Positions 9,098 to 31,763 of a stretch of DNA of 31,763 bases are shown piece by piece. The DNA is taken from the IMG/VR virus record IMGVR_UViG_3300017739_000055, positions 1-31,763 of that record; one strand, 5' to 3'. Position 1 is the stretch's first letter; the number at the start of each line of letters is the position of its first letter. A program made the translations under genes and the position numbers. Source of the DNA: a virus. The notes beneath the pieces were generated by a model, which saw only the letters and a program-made list of their open reading frames with translations, made no database searches and was not told the origin of the DNA.

Positions 9098-9123
9098 TAT
9101 AATTAAATAAAAAAGAAAAAGAT

Positions 9124-10020
9124 ATGGCTACTACAACAAGTATAACAACTACATACGCAGGACAGGTCGCAGGTGAATATATCGCTGCAGCTTTATTGAG
9201 TGGTGTAACGTTATCGCAAGGTGGGGTTTCAGTAAAACCTAACATTAAATTTAAAGAAGTTATCAAAAAACTTGCATTAGATAGCATTTTAAAAGATGCT
9301 TCTTGTGATTTTGATCCAACTTCAAATGTAACATTAACAGAAAGAATTTTACAACCAGAGGAGTTTCAGGTAAACTTACAACTTTGTAAAAAAGATTTTA
9401 GACAAGACTGGGATGCTCAGTCAATGGGATTTAGTCAATATGACAATCTTCCTAAAAATTTCTCTGACTTCTTAATTGGACAAGTTGCAGGTAAGGTTGC
9501 TCAAAAAACAGAGCAGAATATTTGGCAAGGTGCAACTGCAAACGTAGGTGAGTTTAATGGCTTTCAAGCGTTACTTGCAGCAGATGGAGATGTTGTTGAT
9601 GTAACAGGTACAACATTATCAGCTACAAATATAATCGCAGAATTAGGAAAGGTAGTAGATGCTATTCCTAGTGCAGTTTATAGCAAGGAAGATGTAAAAA
9701 TTTATATTCCAACAAGTGCTGCTAAGTTTTATATTCAAGCACAAGCTGCTTTAGGATATAGAGAGCTTTACAACGTTGGTAAAACAGAGATGAACTTTCA
9801 GGGTATTCCATTATTTACAGCTCCTGGTTTAGGAAATGATAAAATGGTTGCTGCAGAATCTTCTAACTTATTCTTCGGAACAGGTCTATTAAATGACTGG
9901 CAAGAAGTTAAGTTAATTGATATGGCAGACATTGATGGAAGTCAAAATGTAAGAGTTGTTTTAAGAGGAAGTGCAGGAGTACAGCACGGAATAGGATCAG
10001 ATATCGTATTATACTCTTAA
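9124..10020 (+). CDS. Major capsid protein
   Basis: A 298-residue protein without signal peptide, located after protease, scaffold and decoration genes and followed at once by a strong intrinsic terminator, as often found for abundantly expressed capsid genes. The sequence (NIKFKEVIKKLALDSILKDA near residue 40, a long helix-like AGKVAQKTEQNIWQGA, then DVKIYIPTSAAKFYIQAQ and NFQGIPLFTAPGLG) matches what I know of Bacteroidetes phage capsid proteins with an HK97-like fold. It would form the icosahedral shell. There is no long N-terminal delta domain, which agrees with the separate scaffold-like gene at 8091. Confidence 0.8.
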   Translation: MATTTSITTTYAGQVAGEYIAAALLSGVTLSQGGVSVKPNIKFKEVIKKLALDSILKDASCDFDPTSNVTLTERILQPEEFQVNLQLCKKDFRQDWDAQSMGFSQYDNLPKNFSDFLIGQVAGKVAQKTEQNIWQGATANVGEFNGFQALLAADGDVVDVTGTTLSATNIIAELGKVVDAIPSAVYSKEDVKIYIPTSAAKFYIQAQAALGYRELYNVGKTEMNFQGIPLFTAPGLGNDKMVAAESSNLFFGTGLLNDWQEVKLIDMADIDGSQNVRVVLRGSAGVQHGIGSDIVLYS

Positions 10021-20077: not shown

Positions 20078-20314
20078 ATGATTAAATACAAACATAAATT
20101 ACACATTACAGATATTCGCTTTAATAATGAAGATATTACAGTGGAATATAACTATTCAAAAGCAGAGCTTGGACACCTTGATGGTACGGGTACTTTTGAT
20201 GGTGTAGAGATAGTAAAGGTATTACTAGACACAGTAGATGTAACTAAATTAATACATAGTGATTATATAGAAGATATAGAATTAGATGTATTAGATAAAC
20301 ACGTTAATAAATAA
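20078..20314 (+). CDS. Hypothetical protein (78 aa)
   Basis: A 78-residue acidic protein (KLHITDIRFNNEDITVEYNY; GHLDGTGTFDGVEIVKVLLD). It is the first gene of the replication region, right after the double terminator and a family-A motif, so it should be among the first genes transcribed. No family is recognised. Its stop overlaps the start of the next small gene. Confidence 0.6.
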   Translation: MIKYKHKLHITDIRFNNEDITVEYNYSKAELGHLDGTGTFDGVEIVKVLLDTVDVTKLIHSDYIEDIELDVLDKHVNK

Positions 20315-20493
20315 TGGACTTTTTACTAGCAAAATTATCTCAATTAGAAAAAGATAAATTATCATTAATTATAGAAAATCAAGAATTAAGAAATGAACTT
20401 AATGATGAAAAAATTAAGGTAAGATTATTATCAGCAAAAGATGAGATCTTGCACGAAAGAAATAATGAAGAATACTTTAACTCAAAAAAATAA
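20314..20493 (+). CDS. Small helical protein (59 aa)
   Basis: A 59-residue protein from an ATG overlapping the previous stop (TAATG). It is almost wholly helical and charged (LAKLSQLEKDKLSLIIENQE; LRNELNDEKIKVRLLSAKDE), as in a short coiled coil. Six bases separate it from the next gene. The function is unknown. Confidence 0.6.
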   Translation: MDFLLAKLSQLEKDKLSLIIENQELRNELNDEKIKVRLLSAKDEILHERNNEEYFNSKK

Positions 20494-20499
20494 ATAAAT

Positions 20500-20886
20500 A
20501 TGGAATATACAAGTACAATTAAATCAATAATTAAAAAAGAAAGCTTTAACACCAAAGATGGTGCATTAATAAACAAATATATGGTACAATTTGCTAATGG
20601 TCATAATCCAAATGTTTACACAACAAAGGAATTAACTTTTGATGTAGGCGAGGAGATTACTTACAATTTAGATCAAGCAAAAAATAAAGCAAAATTAATG
20701 CCTAAAACAAACAATAATTACACAAACCCAAAAGATGATATACAGAAATATATTATTAGACAAAGCTGTTTAGATCGTGCAACAGAATTATTAAAAGATC
20801 GTAACTATAATTGGGAAATGGAAAAAAACAGAGATAAATTAACAGAATTAGCAGAACATTTAAAAAACTACGTATACAATGGATAA
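20500..20886 (+). CDS. OB-fold-like, possible ssDNA-binding protein (128 aa)
   Basis: A 128-residue protein with an N-terminal beta-rich part (SFNTKDGALINKYMVQFANG and LTFDVGEEITYNL) that looks like a small OB fold, and a helical C-terminal part with IIRQSCLDRATELL. This combination is seen in small nucleic-acid-binding proteins of Bacteroidetes phages. It overlaps the next gene, which has an SSB-type acidic tail, and lies before the helicase. A role in coating or loading single-stranded DNA is an inference. Confidence 0.5.
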   Translation: MEYTSTIKSIIKKESFNTKDGALINKYMVQFANGHNPNVYTTKELTFDVGEEITYNLDQAKNKAKLMPKTNNNYTNPKDDIQKYIIRQSCLDRATELLKDRNYNWEMEKNRDKLTELAEHLKNYVYNG

Positions 20887-21136
20887 AGATATAAAATTTA
20901 TAAGCGGCATATATGCTACACAACACAGGGATTGGTGTCATAGAATAGCAATTAATGTAAAACAATTTGAAGAACAGTTTAAATTATTTAAAGAAAATGC
21001 CAACGAAAAGGGCTTTTATGAATTTGAAATGTTAAAAAGCAAAAAGGGTAAATTATATTTTAAAGAAAAAGATTTACCTAGACAAGAAGTTACTTCACAA
21101 GATCATAGCCCAGACCGAGACCCACTACCATTTTAA
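20879..21136 (+). CDS. Small protein with SSB-like C-terminal tail (85 aa)
   Basis: An 85-residue protein (ISGIYATQHRDWCHRIAINV; KGFYEFEMLKSKKGKLYF) whose last residues are DHSPDRDPLPF. An acidic stretch ending in Pro-Phe is the hallmark of bacterial SSB tails (DDDIPF) that recruit replication and repair partners. The body is too short for a full SSB and may work with the OB-like protein whose gene it overlaps by 8 bases. The helicase gene follows after 16 bases. Confidence 0.5.
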   Translation: MDKDIKFISGIYATQHRDWCHRIAINVKQFEEQFKLFKENANEKGFYEFEMLKSKKGKLYFKEKDLPRQEVTSQDHSPDRDPLPF

Positions 21137-21140
21137 TTTT

Positions 21141-21148
21141 TATATTTG
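21141..21148 (+). promoter_or_regulatory. Candidate -7 box TATATTTG
   Basis: TATATTTG lies in the 16-base gap before the helicase gene and matches TAnnTTTG exactly, but part of the required upstream region is inside the previous coding sequence and no TTG sits at the right distance. Confidence 0.3.
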
Positions 21149-21152
21149 CTTA

Positions 21153-22067
21153 ATGCTAATTAATTATGATGATGAGATTGACAAATTAATAAAAATCAGA
21201 CAAGGCAAAGTTACAGAGGGCTATAAATTAGATTTACCAGAAATTGATGAATATTTTAGATTTAAAAAGGGTAACTTTAATTTAATACTTGGTCACGCGA
21301 ATACAGGTAAAACTACAATTACATTATTTTTTATGTTGCTTTATTCATTAAAGCACAAAATTAAATGGTTGGTATTTTCAAGTGAAAATGATAGCCATAC
21401 TATTATAAAAAAATTAATTGAGTTTCTTGCAGTACAGCCAATAAATAAAATATCTACTGAAACATTTGATAAACACGCGAAGTTTGTTTTTGATCACTTT
21501 AAATTTGTAGATTGTCAAGATACATATACATTTAAACAATTATTAAAGTTTGGAGAAGTTGTAAAAAATGCTTGGGATTATCAAGGTTTTTTAATTGATC
21601 CTTATAATAGTTTATTTAAAGATCGTGAATTAATGAAAGGAATTAATGGTCACGAGTACGATTATGAAGCTACAAGTCAAATGCGATTATTTTGTAAAAA
21701 GTTTAATATCAGTATATGGCTCACAACACACGCGACAACAAATGCATTAAGAATAAAGCATCCTTTACAGCACGATTATGCAGGGCACCCAATACCACCA
21801 CTAGCTAGTGATGTTGAGGGAGGGGGCAAGTTTGTAAACAGGGCAGATGATTTTCTTGTTATACACCGATACACACAACACCCATCAGAGTGGATGAATA
21901 ACCACATACATATTAGAAAAATAAAAGACAACGATACAGGGGGTAGACCTACACCAATTGACACACCAATAGTTTTAAAATCTATTAAAAATAATGTGGG
22001 GTTTGAATTAAATGGAAAAAAAATACTAAATTTAGCATTAGTTGAACAAATTAATGCACCATTCTAA
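21153..22067 (+). CDS. DnaB/RecA-like replicative helicase ATPase
   Basis: A 304-residue protein with one RecA-type ATPase core: Walker A LGHANTGKTT (46-55), the SSEND segment after beta-2, Walker B GFLIDPYNS (Asp149), then IWLTTHATTNALR and a C-terminal HIHIRKIKDNDTGG finger. This matches DnaB-like/Twinkle-type helicases that lack a primase domain. No separate primase or DNA polymerase is visible in the window, so replication probably relies on host enzymes. It ends overlapping the sigma-like gene by 14 bases. Confidence 0.75.
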   Translation: MLINYDDEIDKLIKIRQGKVTEGYKLDLPEIDEYFRFKKGNFNLILGHANTGKTTITLFFMLLYSLKHKIKWLVFSSENDSHTIIKKLIEFLAVQPINKISTETFDKHAKFVFDHFKFVDCQDTYTFKQLLKFGEVVKNAWDYQGFLIDPYNSLFKDRELMKGINGHEYDYEATSQMRLFCKKFNISIWLTTHATTNALRIKHPLQHDYAGHPIPPLASDVEGGGKFVNRADDFLVIHRYTQHPSEWMNNHIHIRKIKDNDTGGRPTPIDTPIVLKSIKNNVGFELNGKKILNLALVEQINAPF

Positions 22068-22536
22068 CCTTGAACATAAATTAACACAAAGACATAAAGA
22101 TTGGATACGTATTTCTAAATCATTTGGCGCAGGCGATTATTCTGAAGATTTAGTGCAAGAAATGTACATACGAGTATTAAAATATATTCGTAATGGCAAA
22201 GATCTTTCATACAAGGGCGACATCAATTATTTATATATTTATCAGATGCTCAGGCATATGAGTATAAATCTTTTGCTAAAAAAGAGAAAAATTAATGTTA
22301 TTAATATAGAAGCAGTTAAAAATAAGAAAAAAACAAATACTGAAGTTAATATAGAAAAGGTATATAAAAAGATAAATAAAACACTTGATGATATGTATTG
22401 GTACGATTCACAAGTATATCGTATAATAGAAAGTGGTGTTAGTATAAAACAGCTAAGTAAAAAAAGTGAAATTAGTTATTATAGCCTTTACAGAACATAT
22501 AACAAAGTAAAAAATATATTAAAAGAATTATTATGA
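22054..22536 (+). CDS. Sigma-70-like RNA polymerase factor
   Basis: A 160-residue protein from ATG 22054; a TTG 12 bases earlier is also possible. The N-terminal half resembles sigma region 2 (WIRISKSFGAGDYSEDLVQE, MYIRVLKYI, INYLYIYQMLRHMSINLLLK), and the C-terminal ~45 residues form a helix-turn-helix like region 4 (GVSIKQLSKKSEISYYSLYR). A short charged linker joins them. It could redirect host RNA polymerase to phage promoters. It lies among early-type genes. Small divergent sigma-like proteins are known in Bacteroidetes phages; actual activity is inferred. Confidence 0.65.
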   Translation: MHHSNLEHKLTQRHKDWIRISKSFGAGDYSEDLVQEMYIRVLKYIRNGKDLSYKGDINYLYIYQMLRHMSINLLLKKRKINVINIEAVKNKKKTNTEVNIEKVYKKINKTLDDMYWYDSQVYRIIESGVSIKQLSKKSEISYYSLYRTYNKVKNILKELL

Positions 22537-22658
22537 GATTAGGAGACATTGTTTATTATATTACGAAATATACAGGAATTAGATATATATGGAAAAAAAT
22601 ATATCCTGACTGTGATTGTGATAAAAGAAGAAAAAAATGGAACGAAATAAATCTTTAG
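22533..22658 (+). CDS. Small protein with CDCDxRR motif (41 aa)
   Basis: An ATG overlapping the previous stop opens a 41-codon frame: MRLGDIVYYITKYTGIRYIW then PDCDCDKRRKKWNEI. The pattern (GD..YYITKxTGI plus a C-x-C-x3-RR end) recurs in tiny proteins of Bacteroidetes phages. The end overlaps the next gene by 22 bases, and that gene carries a similar FCDCNARR motif. A small metal site is possible. Confidence 0.6.
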   Translation: MRLGDIVYYITKYTGIRYIWKKIYPDCDCDKRRKKWNEINL

Positions 22659-22843
22659 ATAAAACCTTATGGAAAGAGGTTAGAAAAAGAATCACTAGCC
22701 GTATGCAACACGATGATTTTTTAATTATGTGCCAACTACACGCTAAATATATGAAACATAAATATCACGAACTTAATTTTTGTGATTGTAATGCAAGAAG
22801 AATAAATCAATGGATTGAGGAAGTGGACAAATGTTTAAATTAA
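22637..22843 (+). CDS. Small protein with CDCNxRR motif (68 aa)
   Basis: A 68-residue basic, helical protein (WKEVRKRITSRMQHDDFLIM; MKHKYHELNFCDCNARRINQ). It contains an additional Cys (MCQLH) and two His near the CDC motif, so a small zinc site could form. It overlaps its neighbours on both sides. The function is not recognised. Confidence 0.55.
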   Translation: MERNKSLDKTLWKEVRKRITSRMQHDDFLIMCQLHAKYMKHKYHELNFCDCNARRINQWIEEVDKCLN

Positions 22844-23244
22844 AAGAAGTACATAATATGGAAAAAGCCATAGTTGGTGTCTTAAATATCTTCGGATGGG
22901 AATTAAAATGGACTGGTGGTAAATATGAACATTATGATTGTCGTGGGTTAACACCAAAAGGTTATGAGTGTGTTATTGAAATGAAGTTTAGAAAAGATTA
23001 TTACAAAAAAAAATTATTAGAAAAATATAAGTACGATCAACTAATGAGTATGGATAAAGACATAGTTAAGCTTTATTTTGTAAATGATCCAAAAGCAAAT
23101 TATATGTTCTGGCTTAATGAATTAGAATTAAATGAAAAAACAAGTATGTGGTGTCCAGAAACAACATTATGGAATAGTAGAAAAATAAGAAAGGATTGTT
23201 ATTTAATTGATGAAAACCAAGCAGTTATGACAAACATTAACTAA
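22831..23244 (+). CDS. PD-(D/E)XK nuclease-like protein
   Basis: A 137-residue protein (from ATG 22831; ATG 22858 is equally possible and nothing decides). The region GGKYEHYDCRGLTPKG followed by YECVIEMKFRKDYY gives an acidic residue and an E-x-K pair in beta-strand context, the signature of small PD-(D/E)XK nucleases such as resolvase-type enzymes, and LLEKYKYDQLM continues the typical helix. A Holliday-junction or nick-processing role would fit the recombination genes around it. The fold is inferred from these few residues. Confidence 0.55.
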   Translation: MFKLKEVHNMEKAIVGVLNIFGWELKWTGGKYEHYDCRGLTPKGYECVIEMKFRKDYYKKKLLEKYKYDQLMSMDKDIVKLYFVNDPKANYMFWLNELELNEKTSMWCPETTLWNSRKIRKDCYLIDENQAVMTNIN

Positions 23245-23251
23245 TTTTTTT

Positions 23252-23259
23252 TATTTTTG
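23252..23259 (+). promoter_or_regulatory. Candidate -7 box TATTTTTG
   Basis: TATTTTTG matches TAnnTTTG in the 44-base gap after the nuclease-like gene, 29 bases before the ATG at 23289. No TTG is seen at -33, so it is weak. Confidence 0.3.
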
Positions 23260-23288
23260 TAAAAAATAGTAAACTTAAAAAATGTATT

Positions 23289-23468
23289 ATGGTAATATCT
23301 AATCAAATATTTGAATCTTTTAGAATTAAAGAAAGAGTAAAAGAACAAAAAAAGGCAGTTAAAATATTAATATCACAAGGTTATACTTTGTTAGACCCAG
23401 AAGGCAACATACTCAACAAACAAAACACAAGGTTTGATATTGATAACAATAAAGTACAGCCAGAATGA
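23289..23468 (+). CDS. Small hypothetical protein (59 aa)
   Basis: A 59-residue protein (IFESFRIKERVKEQKKAVKI; LISQGYTLLDPEGNILNKQN). It fills the gap between the nuclease-like gene and the coiled-coil gene and ends with an ATGA overlap with the latter, which supports translation. The xxGYxLxDxxGxILNK pattern recurs in small phage proteins near recombination genes; the function is unknown. Confidence 0.6.
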   Translation: MVISNQIFESFRIKERVKEQKKAVKILISQGYTLLDPEGNILNKQNTRFDIDNNKVQPE

Positions 23469-23770
23469 ACACACAGCATTTTCAAATATACGAAGCATCA
23501 TTTAATCACATTGGCAGTATTTTAGTAGAAGAACACGAAAAAAGTAAACAAAAAAATACAGCAGATAAAATTAAATGTATAAATCAAATGTATATGTATA
23601 CTAATACTTTACAGATTGATTATAATATTTTGTTAGAAAAATATAAAATTTTAAAAACAGAGTATAACAAACAGATACAAGAATTAAATACTAATCTAAA
23701 TGAAGCACATAACATTATTGGACTCAAAAATTTGGGAAGTAAAAGATTTACTGACCAAAATGCAAAGTGA
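23465..23770 (+). CDS. Small coiled-coil protein (101 aa)
   Basis: A 101-residue helical protein (ASFNHIGSILVEEHEKSKQK; a long Lys/Gln/Asn-rich coiled region near 55-90). It starts in an ATGA overlap and overlaps the PDDEXK exonuclease gene by 11 bases. It could be an accessory to that nuclease; no family is recognised. Confidence 0.5.
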   Translation: MNTQHFQIYEASFNHIGSILVEEHEKSKQKNTADKIKCINQMYMYTNTLQIDYNILLEKYKILKTEYNKQIQELNTNLNEAHNIIGLKNLGSKRFTDQNAK

Positions 23771-24494
23771 TGACTTTTACTATGGATATTTAAGTAAAGC
23801 TGCTCTTAGTAGTTCATCAATCAAGCATCTTATCAAAAGTCCAAAAAAATACAAGTATATAACTAATAATGCACAGCGTATGAATTCAGCAATGAAAACA
23901 GGTTGGCTATTGCATTGTGCTGTATTAGAGCCAGAAAAATTTTCTAATCAAATATTTGTTGACGTACAAAGTAGAAATACAAAAAAATTTAAAGAAGTAG
24001 CACAAGGTAATGATATGATTTTTACAGCTAAAGAAAGATCAGAAACAGAAAGGTTGCAAGACGCTATATTTAGAAATGAACAAGCACTTAGGTTATTAAG
24101 TAACTGTGAATTTGAGGTTCCAAAAATTGGTATGATAAATGGTTTACCTTTTCGTGGTAAAGCAGATGTTTTATGCAATAATGGCATTGTGGATCTAAAA
24201 ACTTCAATGAATATAGAGCTTTGGGATCCTAAAAAAAAATATGTAACAGGTAGTCCTTATAATCTACATTATGACGTTCAAGCTTTTATATATTCAAGTA
24301 TATTTAATATTGATTACAAAAATTTTACATTTTTAGTTATTGATAAAGGCTCACTTGATATAGGGATTTTTGAGTGTAGTGAAGAATTTTACTTAAGTGG
24401 AAAACAAAAAACCTATGAAGCTATTTCAAGGTATAGGCAATTTTTTATAGATGAAGTTGATATTGATAGTTATACATTAAGAGGTACATTATGA
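23760..24494 (+). CDS. PDDEXK-type exonuclease (DUF3799/RecE-like)
   Basis: A 244-residue protein from ATG 23760; an in-frame ATG at 23700 would add 20 residues and a 71-base overlap, which I consider less likely. It has SxSxIKHLIKSPKKYKY, GWLLHCAVLEPEKF, then FRGKADVLCNNGIVDLKTS with Asp and the D-x-K catalytic pair, and YDVQAFIYSSIF. These are the landmarks of the RecB/RecE-related PDDEXK family (DUF3799) that prepares recombination ends. A matching annealase is not obvious in the window. Confidence 0.75.
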   Translation: MQSDDFYYGYLSKAALSSSSIKHLIKSPKKYKYITNNAQRMNSAMKTGWLLHCAVLEPEKFSNQIFVDVQSRNTKKFKEVAQGNDMIFTAKERSETERLQDAIFRNEQALRLLSNCEFEVPKIGMINGLPFRGKADVLCNNGIVDLKTSMNIELWDPKKKYVTGSPYNLHYDVQAFIYSSIFNIDYKNFTFLVIDKGSLDIGIFECSEEFYLSGKQKTYEAISRYRQFFIDEVDIDSYTLRGTL

Positions 24495-25063
24495 TAGTAA
24501 ATATAGAAGAAATAAAATACAACGACAAGAACCCGAGGGTTATAAAAGATTACAAATTTCAAAAACTTGTTAAAAGCATTAAAGACTTTCCAGAAATGCT
24601 TGAAAAAAGACCAATAGTTGTAGATGAAAATATGGTTGTACTTGGTGGCAATATGCGATTAAGAGCCTGTCACGAAGCAGGCTTTACAACTGTACATATA
24701 TTAAAAGCTGAGGGGTGGTCTGACAAACAAAAAGAGCAATTTATTATAAAAGATAATAGTAGCTTTGGAGAGTGGGATTGGGACATACTTGCAAATGAAT
24801 GGGAGATTAAAGAGCTATCAGATTGGGGGTTAGATTTACCAAAGATATATTTTGATGAAGACAAAGAGCCGGAGGTCGACAGAGACATCTTTGATCAAGA
24901 ACTTGATACCTATATAAATGCAAAAGTTAAACAGATCACATTATACTTTAATGCACAAGATTACGAAGAAGCCATCAATGATTTAGAAAAAATAAGAGAG
25001 AAAGAAAATTTAACAGACAACACACAAGTATTTAAGTTTCTGATTGAAAAGTATGGATTATAA
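24491..25063 (+). CDS. ParB-like N-terminal domain protein
   Basis: A 190-residue protein starting in an ATGA overlap. The N-terminal ~75 residues are a ParB/Srx-like domain: IKYNDKNPR (NPR 14-16), KRPIVVDENMVVLGGNMRLR and the GGNxRxxA box (52-59). The part FGEWDWDILANEWEIKELSD and LDLPKIYFDEDKEPE matches ParB-like proteins that accompany DNA-modifying enzymes in phages. The C-terminus is helical and acidic. It overlaps the glycosyltransferase gene by 11 bases and is probably part of the same modification cassette, where ParB-like proteins may guide or regulate base modification. A partition role is unlikely, as no ParA is present. Confidence 0.7.
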   Translation: MIVNIEEIKYNDKNPRVIKDYKFQKLVKSIKDFPEMLEKRPIVVDENMVVLGGNMRLRACHEAGFTTVHILKAEGWSDKQKEQFIIKDNSSFGEWDWDILANEWEIKELSDWGLDLPKIYFDEDKEPEVDRDIFDQELDTYINAKVKQITLYFNAQDYEEAINDLEKIREKENLTDNTQVFKFLIEKYGL

Positions 25064-25796
25064 AATAGCAATACCATCATATAAAAGACCTGAAACAATA
25101 AAAAACAAGACTTTAAAATTGTTATCTAAATATAACATTGATAAAAAAAAGATAACTGTATTTGTTGCAAATAAACAAGAGGAAAAAATATATAAAGATA
25201 GTATAGGTGCTGAATATAAAATAGTTGTAGGTGTACCAACAATTGGCAAACAAAGAAACTTTATAGAAAAATACTATAAACAGGGAACTAACCTGATGAT
25301 GTTTGATGATGATATTGACAGTGTAATGCGCAAAAGTGTAACAAAATTAATAGAGTTAGAAGATTTAGAAAAAGACGTTATTTATAAAGGATTTAAAACT
25401 TGCGAAATTACAGGTGCAAAAACGTTTGGAATTTATGCTGCAGGTAATCCATATTTTATGAAGCATAGAATTTATACAAAACTTTGTTATATTATTGCTA
25501 GTATGTTTGGTGTTGTTGTGGAACACGATCCGTTTTTAGAACGAGTAACAAATCACGGTGAAGATTACGAATATAGTATAAGGCAATATATAAAAAACAA
25601 AGTACTTGTTAGGCTTGACTATTTAACAGTAAAATCAAACTATTATAAAGAAGCGGGGGGTTTACAAACAATAAGAACATCAGAGTATGTTTATAACTCT
25701 ATATATCAAATACAAAGTATGTTTCCACAATACTGCAAAATGTACATAAGAAAAAGCACAGGTAATGCAGAACTAAGATTAAAAGATATGCGATGA
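25053..25796 (+). CDS. TET-associated glycosyltransferase (TAGT-like)
   Basis: A 247-residue protein from ATG 25053. The GT-A-type N-terminus is clear: IAIPSYKRPETIKNKTLKLL, then ITVFVAN, GVPTIGKQRNFI and LMMFDDDIDSV, with DDD (85-87) as the metal/sugar-nucleotide site. This pattern is that of the TET-associated glycosyltransferases of phages, which attach a sugar to hydroxymethylated bases in DNA. A downstream block has VVEHDPFLERVTNHGEDYEY. It overlaps both the ParB-like gene and, by 4 bases, the TET/JBP gene, which strongly supports this reading. Sugar and target base cannot be read from sequence. Confidence 0.75.
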   Translation: MDYKIAIPSYKRPETIKNKTLKLLSKYNIDKKKITVFVANKQEEKIYKDSIGAEYKIVVGVPTIGKQRNFIEKYYKQGTNLMMFDDDIDSVMRKSVTKLIELEDLEKDVIYKGFKTCEITGAKTFGIYAAGNPYFMKHRIYTKLCYIIASMFGVVVEHDPFLERVTNHGEDYEYSIRQYIKNKVLVRLDYLTVKSNYYKEAGGLQTIRTSEYVYNSIYQIQSMFPQYCKMYIRKSTGNAELRLKDMR

Positions 25797-26674
25797 AAAG
25801 AATTGACGTAGAAAGAAAACCAATAGATAAAAAAGATTATATAAGAAGAACAGCACAATTGAGTGATGTATCAAGGCATATTAATGAAGATGTAATTATT
25901 TACGAGAATGATAAGCCAATTTTATTATATAGAATATTACCAAAAAAACCTACTGATGTTCGGTGGGCAGTAAAAAACATAAAATATGGCACAGGCAAAA
26001 GAACGCACGGCTTGGTAAACACAAGTGCTGTATTTGGCTACAACCCCAGACAAGAAAATAAACACGATTATTGTAGTGCTAGTGCAATGGGAACAACACA
26101 CCCTAAACAACATTATATAATAAGTAGATACGCTAAAGAAGTTGCTAAATTTTATCACGAGTTTTTCCCCACAACTTATTACGATCACAAAAATAAAGTA
26201 AAAGAAAAAGTAAAAAAACAATGGGTAATAAACGGTAGTGTGTTTACGAGTGGTATTGTAAATAAAAATAATCAACTTAAATATCATTACGATAGTGGCA
26301 ATTTTAAAAATGTATTTAGTAATATGATTGTATTTAAAGGGGATGTAGATGGTGGTCATTTAGTTATACCTGAAATTGATATATCTTTAGAAGTAGCAGA
26401 TAATTCACTAACAATATTTGATGGTCAAGATTATATTCACGGCGTTAGCCCTATTGAATACATACATAAAGAAAGCTATAGATATAGTGTTGTATATTAC
26501 TCATTGGAAAGAATGTGGCAATGTATGACTGTTGATGAAGAAATAGGAAGAATCAGAACAAAGAAAATGCAAAGAGAAATAAATAGATTAAATCCAGAAC
26601 ATTTAGATACACTAAAGCAAAGAAAAAAAGAAGCTAAAGATTATAAACAAAGTATAGAAAATGAACAAAAGTGA
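25793..26674 (+). CDS. TET/JBP-family 2-oxoglutarate/Fe(II) dioxygenase
   Basis: A 293-residue protein starting in an ATGA overlap. It carries a full 2OG-Fe(II) signature: LKYHYDSGN gives His165 and Asp167, GGHLVIPEIDISLEVADNSL is the typical double-psi barrel core, FDGQDYIHGVSPI gives His216, and SYRYSVVYYSLERMW gives Arg230 that binds 2-oxoglutarate. The order and spacing match TET/JBP dioxygenases that oxidise the methyl group of 5-methylcytosine or thymine in DNA. FGYNPR (81-86) may be part of the N-terminal substrate region. The C-terminus is a Lys/Glu-rich helix. It is coupled to a TAGT-like gene and followed by terminase. Which base is oxidised is unknown. Confidence 0.8.
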   Translation: MKRIDVERKPIDKKDYIRRTAQLSDVSRHINEDVIIYENDKPILLYRILPKKPTDVRWAVKNIKYGTGKRTHGLVNTSAVFGYNPRQENKHDYCSASAMGTTHPKQHYIISRYAKEVAKFYHEFFPTTYYDHKNKVKEKVKKQWVINGSVFTSGIVNKNNQLKYHYDSGNFKNVFSNMIVFKGDVDGGHLVIPEIDISLEVADNSLTIFDGQDYIHGVSPIEYIHKESYRYSVVYYSLERMWQCMTVDEEIGRIRTKKMQREINRLNPEHLDTLKQRKKEAKDYKQSIENEQK

Positions 26675-27020
26675 ACACATAAAAAAAGGATTACTTGATG
26701 CATTAGAAAAATCTTTAGGCATTGTCACATCTGCTTGTAAACAAGTTGGAATTGGTAGAACTACTTTTTATAATTATTATAACGAAGATAAAGAATTTAA
26801 AGCATCAGTAGATGATGTGCAAAATATGAGCTTGGACTTTGCTGAAAGCAAATTACTTGAACAAATTAAAAATGGCTCAACGGCTGCAACTATATTTTAT
26901 TTAAAAACTAAAGGTAAAAAAAGAGGATATGTTGAAAGACAAGAGATTACAGGTGCAAATGGAATACCAACTGATGTAAAAATAGAAATCGTAGAGAATG
27001 CAAATAGAACTCAAGACTAA
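26661..27020 (+). CDS. Terminase small subunit
   Basis: A 119-residue protein with an N-terminal helix-turn-helix (GIVTSACKQVGIGRTTFYNY) followed by DKEFKASVDDVQNMSLDFAE and a C-terminal part ending near KKRGYVERQEITG, a layout usual for small terminases that recognise packaging sites. It overlaps the dioxygenase gene by 14 bases and the large terminase by 23 bases. The HTH resembles TetR/Fis-like ones but the context is decisive. Confidence 0.8.
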   Translation: MNKSEHIKKGLLDALEKSLGIVTSACKQVGIGRTTFYNYYNEDKEFKASVDDVQNMSLDFAESKLLEQIKNGSTAATIFYLKTKGKKRGYVERQEITGANGIPTDVKIEIVENANRTQD

Positions 27021-28155
27021 TGTTGTATTTAAGCATCTTGTTAAAACAGACAAAAAAATAATAGTAAACCAAGGTGGAACCAGATCAGGTAAAACTTATA
27101 ACATTCTTTTATTTATTATCTTTTATTATTGCTTACGAAATTCTAAAAGGGTTATTACTATTTGTCGTAAGACTTTTCCAGCACTTCGTGCAACTGTTCT
27201 TAGAGATTTTATTAGTATTTTAAAAAAGTATGAACTATATAAAGAAGAACATCACAACAAATCAAGCTCTGAATATTCTCTTTTTGGTAATCTTGTTGAG
27301 TTTATTTCTTTGGATCAGCCTGTTAAAGTTAGAGGAAGAAAACGAAACTTATTATTTGTTAATGAAGCAAACGAGCTGTATTTTGAAGATTGGCAACAGC
27401 TATTGTTCAGAACAAGTGAAAAGATAATACTTGACTATAATCCAAGTGAGGAGTACCATTGGATATACGATAAAATAATACCTAGAGAAGATGCTAGTTT
27501 TTTAAAAACAAATTATCTTGACAATCCTTTTTTAGAAAAAACGTTAATAGATGAAATTGAAAGATTAAAATATACAGATGAACAATACTGGCAAATATAT
27601 GGACTGGGTGAAAAAGGTTTAAGCAAGGCAGTAATATTTAATTATGTAGAATATAATATTATTCCTGCTGAAGCAGAGTTTGTTGCACTGGGTATGGACT
27701 TTGGATTTACTAACGACCCAACAGCTATGGTAAAAATATATAAACATAATCTAAATTTATACATAGAGGAGTTATTATATAGAAGAATGATGACAACGAA
27801 CGATATACATAATTTTCTTAAAAACAACATAACAAAGCAAGTAATATATGCTGATAGTAGTGAGCCACGAATAATTGAAGAACTTAGAAGAATGGGTTGG
27901 AGCATCAGGCCAAGTTTGAAAGGCAAAGATTCTATAAACGCAGGTATTGATTTATTGAAAAGATATAAATTACACATACATAAAGATAGTACAAACGCTA
28001 TACAAGAGTTTAGAAATTATAAATGGAAAGAAGATAGGTCAGGTAAATTAACAAACACCCCAGAAGATAAAAACAACCATATTACAGATGCAGTCCGATA
28101 TGCAACTTATTCTATATTAAGTAAGCCAAACTTTGGTAAATATGCCATTAGGTAG
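26998..28155 (+). CDS. Terminase large subunit
   Basis: A 385-residue protein with both activities of the DNA packaging motor. ATPase: Walker A GGTRSGKT (26-33) and Walker B LLFVNEANE (Glu123). Nuclease (RNase H-like): MDFGFTNDP (Asp234), IYADSSEP (Asp286) and ITDAVRYA (Asp364). The arrangement RKTFPALRATVLRDF matches the Terminase_3/6C-type proteins. Length is slightly short but complete. It starts within the small subunit gene, as is usual. Confidence 0.9.
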   Translation: MQIELKTNVVFKHLVKTDKKIIVNQGGTRSGKTYNILLFIIFYYCLRNSKRVITICRKTFPALRATVLRDFISILKKYELYKEEHHNKSSSEYSLFGNLVEFISLDQPVKVRGRKRNLLFVNEANELYFEDWQQLLFRTSEKIILDYNPSEEYHWIYDKIIPREDASFLKTNYLDNPFLEKTLIDEIERLKYTDEQYWQIYGLGEKGLSKAVIFNYVEYNIIPAEAEFVALGMDFGFTNDPTAMVKIYKHNLNLYIEELLYRRMMTTNDIHNFLKNNITKQVIYADSSEPRIIEELRRMGWSIRPSLKGKDSINAGIDLLKRYKLHIHKDSTNAIQEFRNYKWKEDRSGKLTNTPEDKNNHITDAVRYATYSILSKPNFGKYAIR

Positions 28156-28166
28156 ATTTAAGTTAT

Positions 28167-28190
28167 TTTATTATATTAAGAGTAAATAAA
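28167..28190 (+). promoter_or_regulatory. Family-A upstream motif before 28198
   Basis: The 24 bases (TTTATTATATT, then a variable part, then GTAAATAAA) match the copy at 28425 in 21 of 24 positions and end 7 bases before the ATG. A TTAG lies about 19 bases upstream (28148). A shared promoter/leader element is likely. Confidence 0.45.
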
Positions 28191-28197
28191 TATAAAT

Positions 28198-28404
28198 ATG
28201 GAAAAATTAGTACAAATACAATTATCAGAAGATCAAAAAAAGCTCGTAGAACACGAGTTTAGAATGACTAGTATATTCGTGCCTAACTTTGAAAGAAAGC
28301 TCTCTAAAAAGCTTTGGAATGACCTTAAGCTGTCTGTTTATGTAACTTATAAAGGTGGCTATTTTATAAAAGCAGAAACTGAATCAAAGCCAGTGCTTAG
28401 GTAA
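28198..28404 (+). CDS. Hypothetical protein (68 aa)
   Basis: A 68-residue protein (LVQIQLSEDQKKLVEHEFRM; NFERKLSKKLWNDLKLSVYV) with no membrane segment or known motif. It has its own family-A upstream motif after the terminase. The function is unknown. Confidence 0.55.
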   Translation: MEKLVQIQLSEDQKKLVEHEFRMTSIFVPNFERKLSKKLWNDLKLSVYVTYKGGYFIKAETESKPVLR

Positions 28405-28406
28405 AT

Positions 28407-28448
28407 TTTGAATTGTCATAAATTTTTATTATATTTAATGTAAATAAA
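28407..28448 (+). promoter_or_regulatory. Promoter-like site with family-A motif before 28455
   Basis: TTTG at 28407-28410 is followed after 19 bases by TATATTTA (28430-28437), close to the Bacteroidetes -33/-7 pattern. The -7 box is embedded in the 24-base family-A motif (28425-28448), which ends 6 bases before the ATG. This is the best -33/-7 pair in the window. Confidence 0.5.
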
Positions 28449-28454
28449 CATAAA

Positions 28455-28730
28455 ATGAAAAATACATTTGAAATAAAATCATATAATATTGATTACTATA
28501 TAAGAGGTAAACTTATTGGTTCAATAATAACTAAAAAGCCTGACAGAGAAATTATGGGTTATATGGGCAGAAAAAATACTATACTTGAAAAAGATATATT
28601 ATTAAAAAACAAGAAATACAAAAAAGGTATTACTGTTACAACAGAGTGTTTACCAATATGTGGTAAATATATCGGCACACAAGAAGATAAGATATCAGCA
28701 ATGCTTAAAACTAGATTACCTTATGAATAG
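28455..28730 (+). CDS. Hypothetical protein (91 aa)
   Basis: A 91-residue basic protein (FEIKSYNIDYYIRGKLIGSI; MGYMGRKNTILEKDILLKNK; TVTTECLPICGK). Two Cys (ECLPIC) might bind a metal. It is preceded by a promoter-like site. The following gene starts 8 bases before its stop. The function is unknown. Confidence 0.55.
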   Translation: MKNTFEIKSYNIDYYIRGKLIGSIITKKPDREIMGYMGRKNTILEKDILLKNKKYKKGITVTTECLPICGKYIGTQEDKISAMLKTRLPYE

Positions 28731-29070
28731 ATATATATACGACAATAGACACATAACTGAGGGGGATATATTTTACTCATCGTGGGGTTATGAACAAACC
28801 AATATAAATTTTTATAAAGTAAAAAAAAGAATTGGTAAAGCTACTGCTGAAATCGTACCATTAGAAAATAAAATAGTATACGAAAAAAGCAATCAAACAC
28901 AAGATGCTGTTGTGCCATACAATAATGAGGGAAAGTCTTTTAGGTGTAGGATTAAATATGTTTGTTGGGATAATTTTAAAGAGCCTAGAATAAACCTATC
29001 TACATATCAAACAGCTTATTTATGGAATGGTAAACCAAAATATCAAACAAATGCATACTATGGACACTAA
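28723..29070 (+). CDS. Conserved small phage protein (GDIFYSSWGYEQTN motif)
   Basis: A 115-residue protein from ATG 28723; a GTG at 28660 would create a long overlap and is less likely. It contains GDIFYSSWGYEQTNINFYKV, a pattern I know from many phage and mobile-element proteins of unknown role, and a beta-rich remainder with FRCRIKY. It overlaps the next gene by 11 bases. Confidence 0.65.
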   Translation: MNRYIYDNRHITEGDIFYSSWGYEQTNINFYKVKKRIGKATAEIVPLENKIVYEKSNQTQDAVVPYNNEGKSFRCRIKYVCWDNFKEPRINLSTYQTAYLWNGKPKYQTNAYYGH

Positions 29071-29275
29071 AGAAATATTGCATATATATAATAGATTATC
29101 AAATGAAGATCTTATAAATTTATTTGAGATGGCTAGTGAAAGAATATTCGTATGGAACCCAAATGATAAAACTTGCTATGATCTTGATAGTGATGTACCC
29201 TGTTGTTTTAATGGAACACAAATACAGATCAATATTGCAGATGATGGTATGATTTTAAAACCTATGATAAATTAA
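29060..29275 (+). CDS. Hypothetical protein (71 aa)
   Basis: A 71-residue protein from ATG 29060; earlier in-frame ATGs at 29027 and 29051 would lengthen the overlap. The sequence (MDTKEILHIYNRLSNEDLIN; DKTCYDLDSDVPCCFNGTQI) has three cysteines and is acidic. Its stop overlaps the next start (TAATG). The function is unknown. Confidence 0.55.
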   Translation: MDTKEILHIYNRLSNEDLINLFEMASERIFVWNPNDKTCYDLDSDVPCCFNGTQIQINIADDGMILKPMIN

Positions 29276-29433
29276 TGAGAGAATTTGGAAGAATAATAAA
29301 AAAATTAATATCAGGAACATCTGATCAAACTTGGATATGCATACCTGAATTTATGGATGAAAAAGAAAAGAAATTATTTATAAAAAATACAACAGAGTTT
29401 TTGAAAAATAACATATTAATTAAAGAAAAATAA
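29275..29433 (+). CDS. Small hypothetical protein (52 aa)
   Basis: A 52-residue protein from an ATG overlapping the previous stop (MREFGRIIKKLISGTSDQTW; then DEKEKKLFIKNTTEFLKNNI). Helical and basic. Its stop again overlaps the start of the next small gene, so a chain of coupled tiny genes ends this region. Confidence 0.55.
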   Translation: MREFGRIIKKLISGTSDQTWICIPEFMDEKEKKLFIKNTTEFLKNNILIKEK

Positions 29434-29552
29434 TGAAAACAAAATTATATCTACACCCATTAACAAAACAATTTGTGAGTAAAGAAAAATATTTTAACTT
29501 TATAAAAAGTAAGGCTTTTCCAAAAGAGCCTTTTAATGAAAGGATCAAATAA
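29433..29552 (+). CDS. Small hypothetical protein (39 aa)
   Basis: A 39-residue basic protein (MKTKLYLHPLTKQFVSKEKY; FPKEPFNERIK) starting in a TAATG overlap. It is the last gene before a strong terminator. It is short, but the coupling and position make it credible. The function is unknown. Confidence 0.5.
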   Translation: MKTKLYLHPLTKQFVSKEKYFNFIKSKAFPKEPFNERIK

Positions 29553-29579
29553 TTTTTTCATTTTTTTATAAGTTGTTTG

Positions 29580-29611
29580 GAGGGTTGGTTTTATACTAAC
29601 CCTTTTTTTTT
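29580..29611 (+). terminator. Intrinsic terminator ending the small-gene region
   Basis: GGGTTGGT (29582-29589) pairs with ACTAACCC (29595-29602), eight pairs with one G-U, around a 5-base loop, followed by nine Ts (29603-29611). It separates early-type genes from the tail operon. Confidence 0.85.
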
Positions 29612-29623
29612 AAAATAAAGTAT

Positions 29624-29641
29624 TAATTTTGTTATATAACT
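29624..29641 (+). promoter_or_regulatory. Candidate promoter before 29642
   Basis: TAATTTTG (29624-29631) matches TAnnTTTG exactly and its G begins GTTATATA, which ends 3 bases before the ATG. The preceding AAATAAAGTATTAATTTTG is very similar to the sequence before 10701, also directly after a terminator. The leader would be only a few bases long. Confidence 0.55.
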
Positions 29642-30381
29642 ATGAGACTTAAATTATCGATACCTACAAAACTATCTGAAATAAAATTAGAACAATATCA
29701 AGAGTATTTAAAGGCTGTTGAGAATGAAATAGACGATTACACAGCAGGGTCAAAAATGATTAGTATATTTTGCAACATACCAGAAGCAGACATATATGAA
29801 TTTAAAGTATCACACATTACAAGTGTAAGCAACACATTACAAAAGGTTTTTAATGAAAAAACTAATAATCTCGTAAGAAATTTTAAAATAAATAATATTG
29901 AGTATGGGTTTATACCTAATTTAGATGAGATAACATTTGGAGAATATATTGACCTAGATAATAATTTAAAAGACTGGCAACAAATGCACAAAGCTATGAA
30001 TGTTTTTTATAGACCTGTTGTGCAAAAGCATAAAGAAAGATATATAATAGAGAAATATAAACCAGAAAATAACGAAAATTTAAAACAAATTCCATTAGAT
30101 GCCTGTTTTAGTTCTATTGTTTTTTTTTACAATTTAGGCAAGGAATTGAGTCAGATTATGCTGGGTTATTTAACTCCACAGGAGATGGAGAAACTTCATC
30201 AATCGGAAACTTTGCTACCAAGTGGGGATGGTATCAATCAATTTATGCACTCGCTAAAGGGGATATTAGAAACTACGAAAATATCACTAAGCTAAATGTA
30301 CATCAATGTTTGACAGCACTAGAATTTATAAAAGAGAAAAGCGAAGTAGAACAAAAACAAATTAACAAAAATTTTAAATGA
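29642..30381 (+). CDS. Tail gene with probable -1 frameshift product (join 29642..30127,30127..30381)
   Basis: Frame 0 encodes 217 residues and stops at 30295. At 30120-30128 there is a run of nine Ts forming the slippery heptamer T TTT TTT in frame (30121-30127). The -1 frame is closed by TAG at 30109-30111 and then open to TGA at 30379-30381, and that stop overlaps the next ATG (ATGA). A -1 slip gives a 246-residue product: 162 shared residues, then LQFRQGIESD..., including KWGWYQSIYALAKGD and KLNVHQCLTALEFIKEKSE. This resembles the lambda G/GT tail assembly chaperones in logic and in its place at the start of the tail operon. The -1 extension looks protein-like and explains the otherwise empty 30296-30377. 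Confidence 0.65.
30121..30127 (+). other. -1 ribosomal frameshift heptamer (T TTT TTT)
   Basis: Within nine consecutive Ts, codons GTT TTT TTT TAC place a U UUU UUU slippery sequence in the zero frame. The -1 frame opens 9 bases upstream and stays open for 250 bases after it. No strong stem is obvious by eye just downstream. Confidence 0.6.
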
Positions 30382-30848
30382 GCAATCAGGGTGTAAGAGG
30401 TTTTTATCAAGTAACTAAAACTATAAAAGATAGTTTACTTTCAGATGTAAATGTAAACACAGTAACAACGGGAGATATAACCAAAATAGATTTAAGTAAG
30501 CAGACCATATTTCCATTATCACACTTGCTAGTAAATAATGTTATACAAGAAGATCAAATACTTAGGTTTAATATTAGTGTTTTTTGTATGGATGTGGTTG
30601 ATGTAAGCAAAGATGAAACAACTGATATTTTTGTAGGCAACAATAACGAACAGGATGTTTTAAATACACAACTAGCAGTAATAAACAAATTAATAGAATT
30701 ACTTAGAAGAGGGACACTACATACAAATAAATACCAATTAGATGGTGTTGTAAATTGTGAGCCTTTTTATGACAGGTTTGAAAACGAAGTTGCAGGATGG
30801 GCAGGAACTATGGATATATTAATAGCTAATGATATAAATATTTGTTGA
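30378..30848 (+). CDS. Probable tail terminator/completion protein (156 aa)
   Basis: A 156-residue protein starting in an ATGA overlap with the frameshifted frame. The sequence (MSNQGVRGFYQVTKTIKDSL; SKQTIFPLSHLLVNNVIQED; LRFNISVFCMDVVDVSKD; FENEVAGWAGTMDILIANDI) has the alternating helix-strand look of gpU-like tail terminator proteins, and similar proteins precede the gp10-like gene in related phages. The stop overlaps the next ATG. Confidence 0.6.
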   Translation: MSNQGVRGFYQVTKTIKDSLLSDVNVNTVTTGDITKIDLSKQTIFPLSHLLVNNVIQEDQILRFNISVFCMDVVDVSKDETTDIFVGNNNEQDVLNTQLAVINKLIELLRRGTLHTNKYQLDGVVNCEPFYDRFENEVAGWAGTMDILIANDINIC

Positions 30849-31399
30849 TGGATTTAAAAAAAGTAAACATAGTATTAAGAAACTTTGGACAAAACGTTGT
30901 TAGAGAAGCAAAGCAAAATGCACCAAGTGAAAAAGTATCAGGCAAACTTAAGAATAGTATTAGCTATAAAAAATTTGCAGATGAAATAGAAGCTGTTGTA
31001 ACTTTTTTTATGGAGGACTATGGGAAGTATCAAGATTTAGGTGTGAAAGGAACTAAAAGTGGAGAAAGTTTAGGTAAAAAATACTATGGCTCAAAAGCAA
31101 AAGAATATAAATACACAACAAAAATGCCACCTCCAAATAAGCTAGATAGATTTGTAGTTAGAAAAGGTTTAGCACCTAGAGATTTAAAAGGTAGGTTTAC
31201 TGGCAGGTCTTTAAAAACTGTAGGCTATCAAAAATCAATAACATTTTTAATTGCAAGATCAATATTTGCAAAAGGCATAAAACCTAGTTTGTTTTTTTCT
31301 GAGCCTTTCAGAAAATACTTCCAAGATTTTCCTAGACAAATTGCACAAGCGTACGGAGATGATTTTGAAACTTTTGTAGAATTAAAATTTAAAGGATAA
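30848..31399 (+). CDS. HK97 gp10-like tail completion/assembly protein
   Basis: A 183-residue basic protein from ATG 30848 (TGATG overlap); TTG 30842 is a poorer start. The N-terminus MDLKKVNIVLRNFGQNVVRE and APSEKVSGKLKNSI is typical of the HK97 gp10 family, and YQDLGVKGT, KLDRFVVRKGLAPRDLKGRF and GIKPSLFFSEPFRKYF are shared with the truncated gene at window positions 1-480. It is about 17 residues longer in the central part than that copy. It should act at the head-tail junction or tail end. Its stop overlaps the next gene (TAATG). Confidence 0.75.
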   Translation: MDLKKVNIVLRNFGQNVVREAKQNAPSEKVSGKLKNSISYKKFADEIEAVVTFFMEDYGKYQDLGVKGTKSGESLGKKYYGSKAKEYKYTTKMPPPNKLDRFVVRKGLAPRDLKGRFTGRSLKTVGYQKSITFLIARSIFAKGIKPSLFFSEPFRKYFQDFPRQIAQAYGDDFETFVELKFKG

Positions 31400-31763
31400 T
31401 GGCAATAGAAAAAATAAATATAAACAGTCCTGTTTACTTAAAAGTAGAAAACTCAAACCTAGCAAGTTGCAAACTAACAATAGCAATATATAGTGGTGCT
31501 TTCGACGCAAGTCCAACAACTACTTACGAACTCATAAAAAATGAAGTAGCAAACAATAACTATGTGATATTTGAAATAGGGGAATTAATAAAAGATTATA
31601 TCGCATATAGCTTTAGTGGTACTTTTGGTAGTAATGGTGTAAATGTATGGGTACAAACAACAGCAACACCATTTAATAGTTCAGGAACAGCACAAGATGC
31701 AATATCATCAATTATGTTAGCATTTGATGGAGTGGGATATTTTGAAGAAGGATTTGACATAAC
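31399..31763 (+). CDS. Tail structural protein, 3' partial (second copy)
   Basis: The first 121 codons of a protein nearly identical to the one at 484-1602; the window ends inside it. Visible amino-acid differences include Asn to Asp and Gly to Ala changes near residues 36 and 51. It starts at an ATG overlapping the gp10-like stop, whereas the left copy has a 3-base gap. Confidence 0.8.
   Translation, partial: MAIEKININSPVYLKVENSNLASCKLTIAIYSGAFDASPTTTYELIKNEVANNNYVIFEIGELIKDYIAYSFSGTFGSNGVNVWVQTTATPFNSSGTAQDAISSIMLAFDGVGYFEEGFDI
31399..31763 (+). repeat. Right copy of the diverged end repeat
   Basis: Ungapped match to 484-848 with 17 mismatches by hand count, concentrated in the first 260 bases; 31657-31763 is identical to 742-848. 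The window ends within an identical stretch, as expected where an assembly graph closes on itself. Confidence 0.9.

Follow-up and report, generated by a model that had tools for sequence, protein, structure and literature searches.

Identity and organization of the cassette

The window analyzed here, comprising all 31,763 bases of one IMG/VR virus record, encodes a TET/JBP dioxygenase and a glycosyltransferase directly ahead of the terminase genes, raising the question of which base in the phage DNA would be oxidized and decorated when no enzyme for making 5-methylcytosine (5mC) is apparent. An earlier examination of the letters alone (hereafter, the sequence-only reading) had described three overlapping genes, including a ParB-like gene with a GGNMRLRA box, lying directly before terminase. 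The open reading frame coordinates and the terminase matches agree with this description, and the features of the locus are as follows:

24491..25063, + strand: ParB-like protein, 190 aa; first of the three overlapping genes and the usual module opener
25053..25796, + strand: TET-associated glycosyltransferase (TAGT), between ParB and TET; the ORF also opens at a TTG at 25044
25793..26674, + strand: TET/JBP Fe(II)/2-oxoglutarate dioxygenase, 293 aa; assigned by Pfam and AlphaFold/Foldseek
26661..26674, no strand: TET/TerS overlap; site of an extra C5-methyltransferase gene (~585 bp) in the relatives L009, L010 and L021
26661..27020, + strand: terminase small subunit TerS (HTH), directly 3' of TET; PHROG terminase small subunit, 1.1e-7
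26998..28155, + strand: terminase large subunit TerL; Pfam Terminase_3C 1.8e-21, Terminase_3 4.8e-20

A DUF3799/exonuclease VIII-like nuclease is encoded just ahead of the cassette (23700-24494), and shortly before it (22831-23244) is the gene for a conserved protein of 137 aa that has no assigned family.

The DDD motif of the glycosyltransferase and the His165-x-Asp167, His216 and Arg230 residues of the dioxygenase had led the sequence-only reading to name both enzymes, and profile and structural searches bore this out. The glycosyltransferase matched PF20691 (E=5.7e-17; 62.8 bits against a curated cut-off of 27.5), and its AlphaFold model (mean pLDDT 90) retrieved the GT-A glycosyltransferases AvpGT and TarS as the best Foldseek matches; together with the DxD-type motif and the neighboring TET, these are the properties of a TAGT. 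The dioxygenase matched Tet_JBP (PF12851; E=3.1e-11; 43.2 bits against a curated cut-off of 34.9), and its AlphaFold model (mean pLDDT 92) had only NgTet1, CMD1, CcTet or TET2 among its 26 top-ranked PDB chains (E ~1e-12 to 1e-9), which ranked above the AlkB-type enzymes ABH2 and FTO, with no other 2-oxoglutarate family ahead. A profile built from 54 phage TETs also reached NgTet1, TET2 and CMD1 by sequence. PHROG 6059 and many actinophage records label this family 'queuine tRNA-ribosyltransferase', a label that we rejected because both Pfam and the fold indicate Tet_JBP; it is a widespread misannotation, and one phage record names the family 'DpdA-like'.

To place the locus in context, we assembled 257 TET loci, consisting of the window, 80 close relatives, 16 isolated phages and 160 more distant viral contigs, many of which are near-duplicates, so that counts drawn from them are not independent. 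The iron triad (H165-x-D167 and H216) and the 2-oxoglutarate-binding R230 are kept in essentially all 257 TETs. Comparison of the window with the C5-methyltransferase-free, TAGT-bearing relatives L003, L005 and L020 gave dN/dS values of 0.05-0.08 for TET and 0.07-0.2 for TAGT, similar to those of terminase. These ratios indicate that both genes are under strong purifying selection without a C5-methyltransferase, and are not decaying.

The ParB-like protein has a ParB N-terminal domain, with the GGNMRLRA box and a KDN...WDWD motif; its ParB_N Pfam match is under the family cut-off (E=1e-3), and PHROG ParB-like families match at 7.3e-24. Another of its matches is to the N-terminal region of phrog_498, annotated as 'DNA methyltransferase' (1.2e-23), and therefore the same ParB-type domain occurs with other DNA-modifying enzymes. 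A ParB-like gene precedes TET in most of the 257 loci, and its presence with TET upstream of terminase in the window is the arrangement of the predicted ParB-TET thymidine hypermodification (THM) operons.

Extent and source of the record

The sequence-only reading had considered that the ~31 kb might be a whole genome. The contig ends match each other (472-848 against 31391-31763, 94% over 377 bases), and a sister contig, L001, with 99.97% identity to window 20180-31704, terminates in the same gene. The L001 end and the 94% end repeat therefore imply that the record is approximately one genome length, with ends from different strains. To judge from these matches, it is a population assembly joining two strains rather than a genome proven to be closed. 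The genes at 1-480 and 30842-31399 are related, but have diverged from each other. The source is a small marine-type tailed phage, and the arrangement of its cassette is shared with other phages rather than unique. A search of a genome collection for prophage copies returned one distant actinobacterial locus and nothing else.

Absence of a methyl-making enzyme

No PF00145 match was found anywhere in the record, and a PPC-type motif followed by ENV was absent from every window ORF of at least 40 aa, consistent with the claim of the sequence-only reading that the window has no C5-methyltransferase. A hidden, divergent enzyme was also considered, and rejected after phmmer with a compact C5-methyltransferase, along with the ORF motif search (at least 40 aa), detected none in the window. 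By profile and by motif, the window therefore does not carry the phage C5-methyltransferase of 5mC-dependent phage TET systems. A dUMP/dCMP hydroxymethylase route was rejected given that no thymidylate synthase family protein is encoded in the window. Neither a 5-hydroxymethyluracil (5hmU) kinase (PF18751) nor an N4/N6 methyltransferase was found in the window, and there was no ADDT among the scanned proteins; the kinase and an ADDT/pyrophosphorylase are further features of THM operons.

The same absence was observed in other phages. Two of the closest relatives, G012 and G013, look complete, as near-identical repeats (101 and 220 bases) are present at their ends; both retain ParB-TAGT-TET without a C5-methyltransferase. 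Such an enzyme was found nearby in 6 of the 257 TET loci, and whole-record searches detected one in 4/50, 4/50 and 1/16. The missing methyltransferase emphasized by the sequence-only reading is thus real but not unusual; ParB-linked phage TETs as a rule have none.

Where the enzyme does occur, its placement is informative. In L009, L010 and L021, whose TETs are 86-91% identical to that of the window, a compact C5-methyltransferase is placed exactly between TET and TerS, as a precise presence/absence insertion: L020 and L021, without and with the gene, respectively, are 91-93% identical on either side of it, and the corresponding pair L005 and L009 is ~95% identical. The L009/L021-type enzyme is ~200 aa, with GxGG, SPPC and ENV motifs and a PF00145 score of 30.1 bits, while that of L074 is of a different type (27% identity) and is located elsewhere in its genome.

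L009:2524-3120; L021 ~9119-9709; L074:3069-3737: compact C5-methyltransferases, ~200-220 aa, without an obvious target-recognition domain

The presence of a C5-methyltransferase inside the cassettes of relatives keeps 5mC, or both bases, among the possible substrates. Two further candidates for small C5-methyltransferases were rejected based on translation and Pfam, that of MED4-184 being a ParB-like protein and that of P12024L an N4/N6 methyltransferase.

Partner enzymes and the predicted base pocket of TET

Across the 257 loci, TET is accompanied by a TAGT, by ADDT or a related pyrophosphorylase-type enzyme together with the 5hmU DNA kinase family, or by an FkbM-type methyltransferase. ADDT and/or the 5hmU kinase occur in ~97 of these loci, and the substrate of 5hmU DNA kinase is the 5-hydroxymethyl group of 5hmU in DNA (PMC7653180). 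A TET that feeds 5hmU chemistry with no methyltransferase needed would most simply act on thymine. On a TET tree of 91 representatives, at least 16 changes between sugar-type and amino-acid-type partners were counted, and such interchange is simplest if the oxidized base is the same.

One of these changes lies close to the window. The TETs of L075-L077 fall within the window's own supported clade (58% identity), and in place of the glycosyltransferase these loci carry an ADDT (E=1.5e-8; 35.1 bits, above the cut-off of 26.2), a flavoenzyme and a weakly matching P-loop kinase; the 5hmU kinase match in L077 is below the family cut-off. In L077 (3459-5516), the ADDT, the flavoenzyme, which is of DAO type, and the P-loop protein are inserted between ParB and TET, and PHROG calls the P-loop protein 'terminase small subunit'. 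Separately, L252 (record G077) combines in one phage a C5-methyltransferase, two ParB-like genes, TET, ADDT and a 5hmU kinase, and both pyrimidine routes may be present there.

By alignment, the predicted base-pocket residues of the window TET are N170, Y236 and L238, corresponding to N1387, Y1902 and H1904 of TET2 and D234, F295 and H297 of NgTet1. An Asn at the position of TET2 Asn1387 may pair with thymine O4, which an Asp cannot (PMC7854593). However, TET2, which acts on 5mC, has this Asn too, and the pocket therefore leaves the base undecided. The phage TETs split cleanly by the residue pair at HxD+3 and Arg+8 into N/Y/L (168) and D/Y/R (82) types, and both types occur next to ADDT and 5hmU kinase as well as next to TAGT, so we rejected the pocket residues as a predictor of the base. 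As far as can be judged from alignment, pocket type marks subfamilies rather than the base, and the residues of the window fit either base.

Exchange of the slot gene between ParB and TET

The glycosyltransferases in the slot between ParB and TET share 15-90% identity, far below the conservation of their neighbors. Slot proteins are <30% identical in 95 of 202 locus pairs whose TETs are 90-99% identical, these pairs stemming from fewer independent swaps. Homology is lost close to where ParB ends or the slot gene starts, and returns at the TET start codon, as in L024/L025 (break at 1409, return at 2158, L024 coordinates), L035/L038 (3942 and 4662, L035 coordinates) and L005/L009 (247 and 1036, L005 coordinates). 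The occupants include TAGT, TAGT-like proteins scoring under the Pfam threshold, proteins that resemble glycosyltransferases but match no Pfam family, a larger protein without an assigned family (L052/L057) and, in L075-L077, the ADDT set. We read this pattern as a decorating enzyme that is exchanged by recombination in conserved flanks. The exchangeability of the modifier gene beside a nearly constant TET is what is new. Upstream of ParB, L035 (2079-3130) also carries another glycosyltransferase-like gene, together with one for a Methyltransf_24/TylF-type methyltransferase (70 bits), the latter possibly a sugar O-methylating step.

A model for the cassette and its alternatives

Based on the gene content and the comparisons above, we consider it on balance probable that the cassette is a post-replicative hypermodification module that converts thymine to 5hmU and then to a base-J-like glycosyl-5hmU. 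TET would hydroxylate the thymine 5-methyl group in replicated phage DNA, and the slot glycosyltransferase, here TAGT, would then transfer a sugar to the new hydroxyl from a nucleotide-sugar of the host. The likely part of the ParB-like protein is to load onto the DNA or track along it, and to guide or couple the enzymes. The gene order suggests that decoration would occur just before terminase packages the DNA, and the modification may shield phage DNA from host nucleases. Swapping of the glycosyltransferase gene through the conserved flanks would change the decoration while the oxidation step stays. Thymine needs no methyltransferase, and given that the window, G012 and G013 lack one, the thymine route is favored. 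More tentatively, and somewhat short of an even call, the cassette could be a phage counterpart of base J, in which the sugar is varied by cassette exchange and an optional C5-methyltransferase extends modification to cytosine. By analogy, such exchange of the sugar might be likened to the swapping of surface-antigen genes.

The sequence-only reading had offered host 5mC or thymine as the substrate; of the two, thymine is now better supported, but the C5-methyltransferases in the cassettes of L009, L010 and L021 speak for the cytosine route as well. By that route, TET would oxidize 5mC made by a host or co-infecting-phage C5-methyltransferase and TAGT would glycosylate the resulting 5hmC, with the phage C5-methyltransferase gene as a module component that is optional and readily lost. 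Loss of this kind would fit the compact enzymes between TET and TerS and their absence from the sisters L020 and L005, and the modeled TET fold is nearest to 5mC enzymes. A statement in PMC11404850, citing Burke et al. 2021, likewise has characterized phage TETs acting on 5mC. However, nearly all ParB-TET phages, complete genomes included, lack a C5-methyltransferase, yet TET is under strong constraint, and the pairing of a C5-methyltransferase with ADDT and 5hmU kinase in L252 implies that presence of the enzyme is no proof of 5mC use. Host 5mC is, moreover, usually sparse and strain-specific, and we regard the cytosine route as rather unlikely.

It is conceivable, though we think improbable, that TET is a dual-substrate enzyme oxidizing both thymine and 5mC, in which case an added methyltransferase would create a second modified base. 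Near-identical TETs are found with and without the methyltransferase, and an Asn at the N4/O4-contacting position would suit either base (PMC7854593); against this, we know of no measured phage enzyme of the window's TET subfamily. A far less probable explanation is that the cassette is not a DNA-modification unit, and that the target of TET or TAGT is RNA, protein or a cell-surface sugar, or that the enzyme is inactive. While GT-A folds are common among surface-sugar enzymes, the dioxygenase model is structurally closest to TET enzymes, many of them DNA-bound, the catalytic residues are essentially invariant, TAGT is defined by its association with TET, and the order ParB-TET-X-terminase recurs in very distant phages.

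Near-identical phage pairs, either with and without the C5-methyltransferase or with unrelated glycosyltransferases and nearly the same TET, provide natural tests of the substrate under the thymine model and its alternatives. If the slot is read correctly, DNA decoration evolves by switching one gene, there would be strong pressure from host enzymes that recognize modified DNA, and the slot would be a source of new DNA glycosyltransferases.

Comparison with known systems

The phage TETs of Burke et al. 2021 (PNAS) reportedly act on 5mC and are paired with a phage C5-methyltransferase, and to our knowledge all biochemically characterized phage TETs oxidize 5mC. The window shares with these systems a TET/JBP dioxygenase, a glycosyltransferase partner and a packaging-gene neighborhood, but lacks the C5-methyltransferase that they carry. 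In Nonlabens phage P12024L, a phage of Bacteroidota, TET adjoins a TAGT (PF20691, 4.2e-21) and there is no PF00145 match, as in the window; in contrast, its TET belongs to the D/Y/R group (26% identity to that of the window), the gene order differs, an N4/N6-type methyltransferase is present, and no ParB adjoins TET. The proposed chemistry is the same as that of kinetoplastid base J, in which JBP1/JBP2 and a glucosyltransferase bring about thymine hydroxylation in DNA followed by glycosylation, although that pathway is eukaryotic and JBP1 has a J-binding domain.

The actinophage operons offer a further comparison. A similar operon of Rhodococcus phage Tonitrus has been described as a possible thymidine hypermodification system (PMC11955845), and one of Gordonia phage CaiB as nucleotide modification genes (PMC9302106). 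The window differs from the operons of these phages, Hangman and Donny/Acadianvirus in being without a 5hmU kinase, ADDT and sugar deacetylase, in its ParB-TAGT-TET order, and in its TET sequence (~28-34% identity). Like the window, they place a ParB-like gene, TET/JBP, a decorating enzyme and mostly terminase in one run, have no C5-methyltransferase in the genome, and carry a TET of the N/Y/L pocket subfamily.
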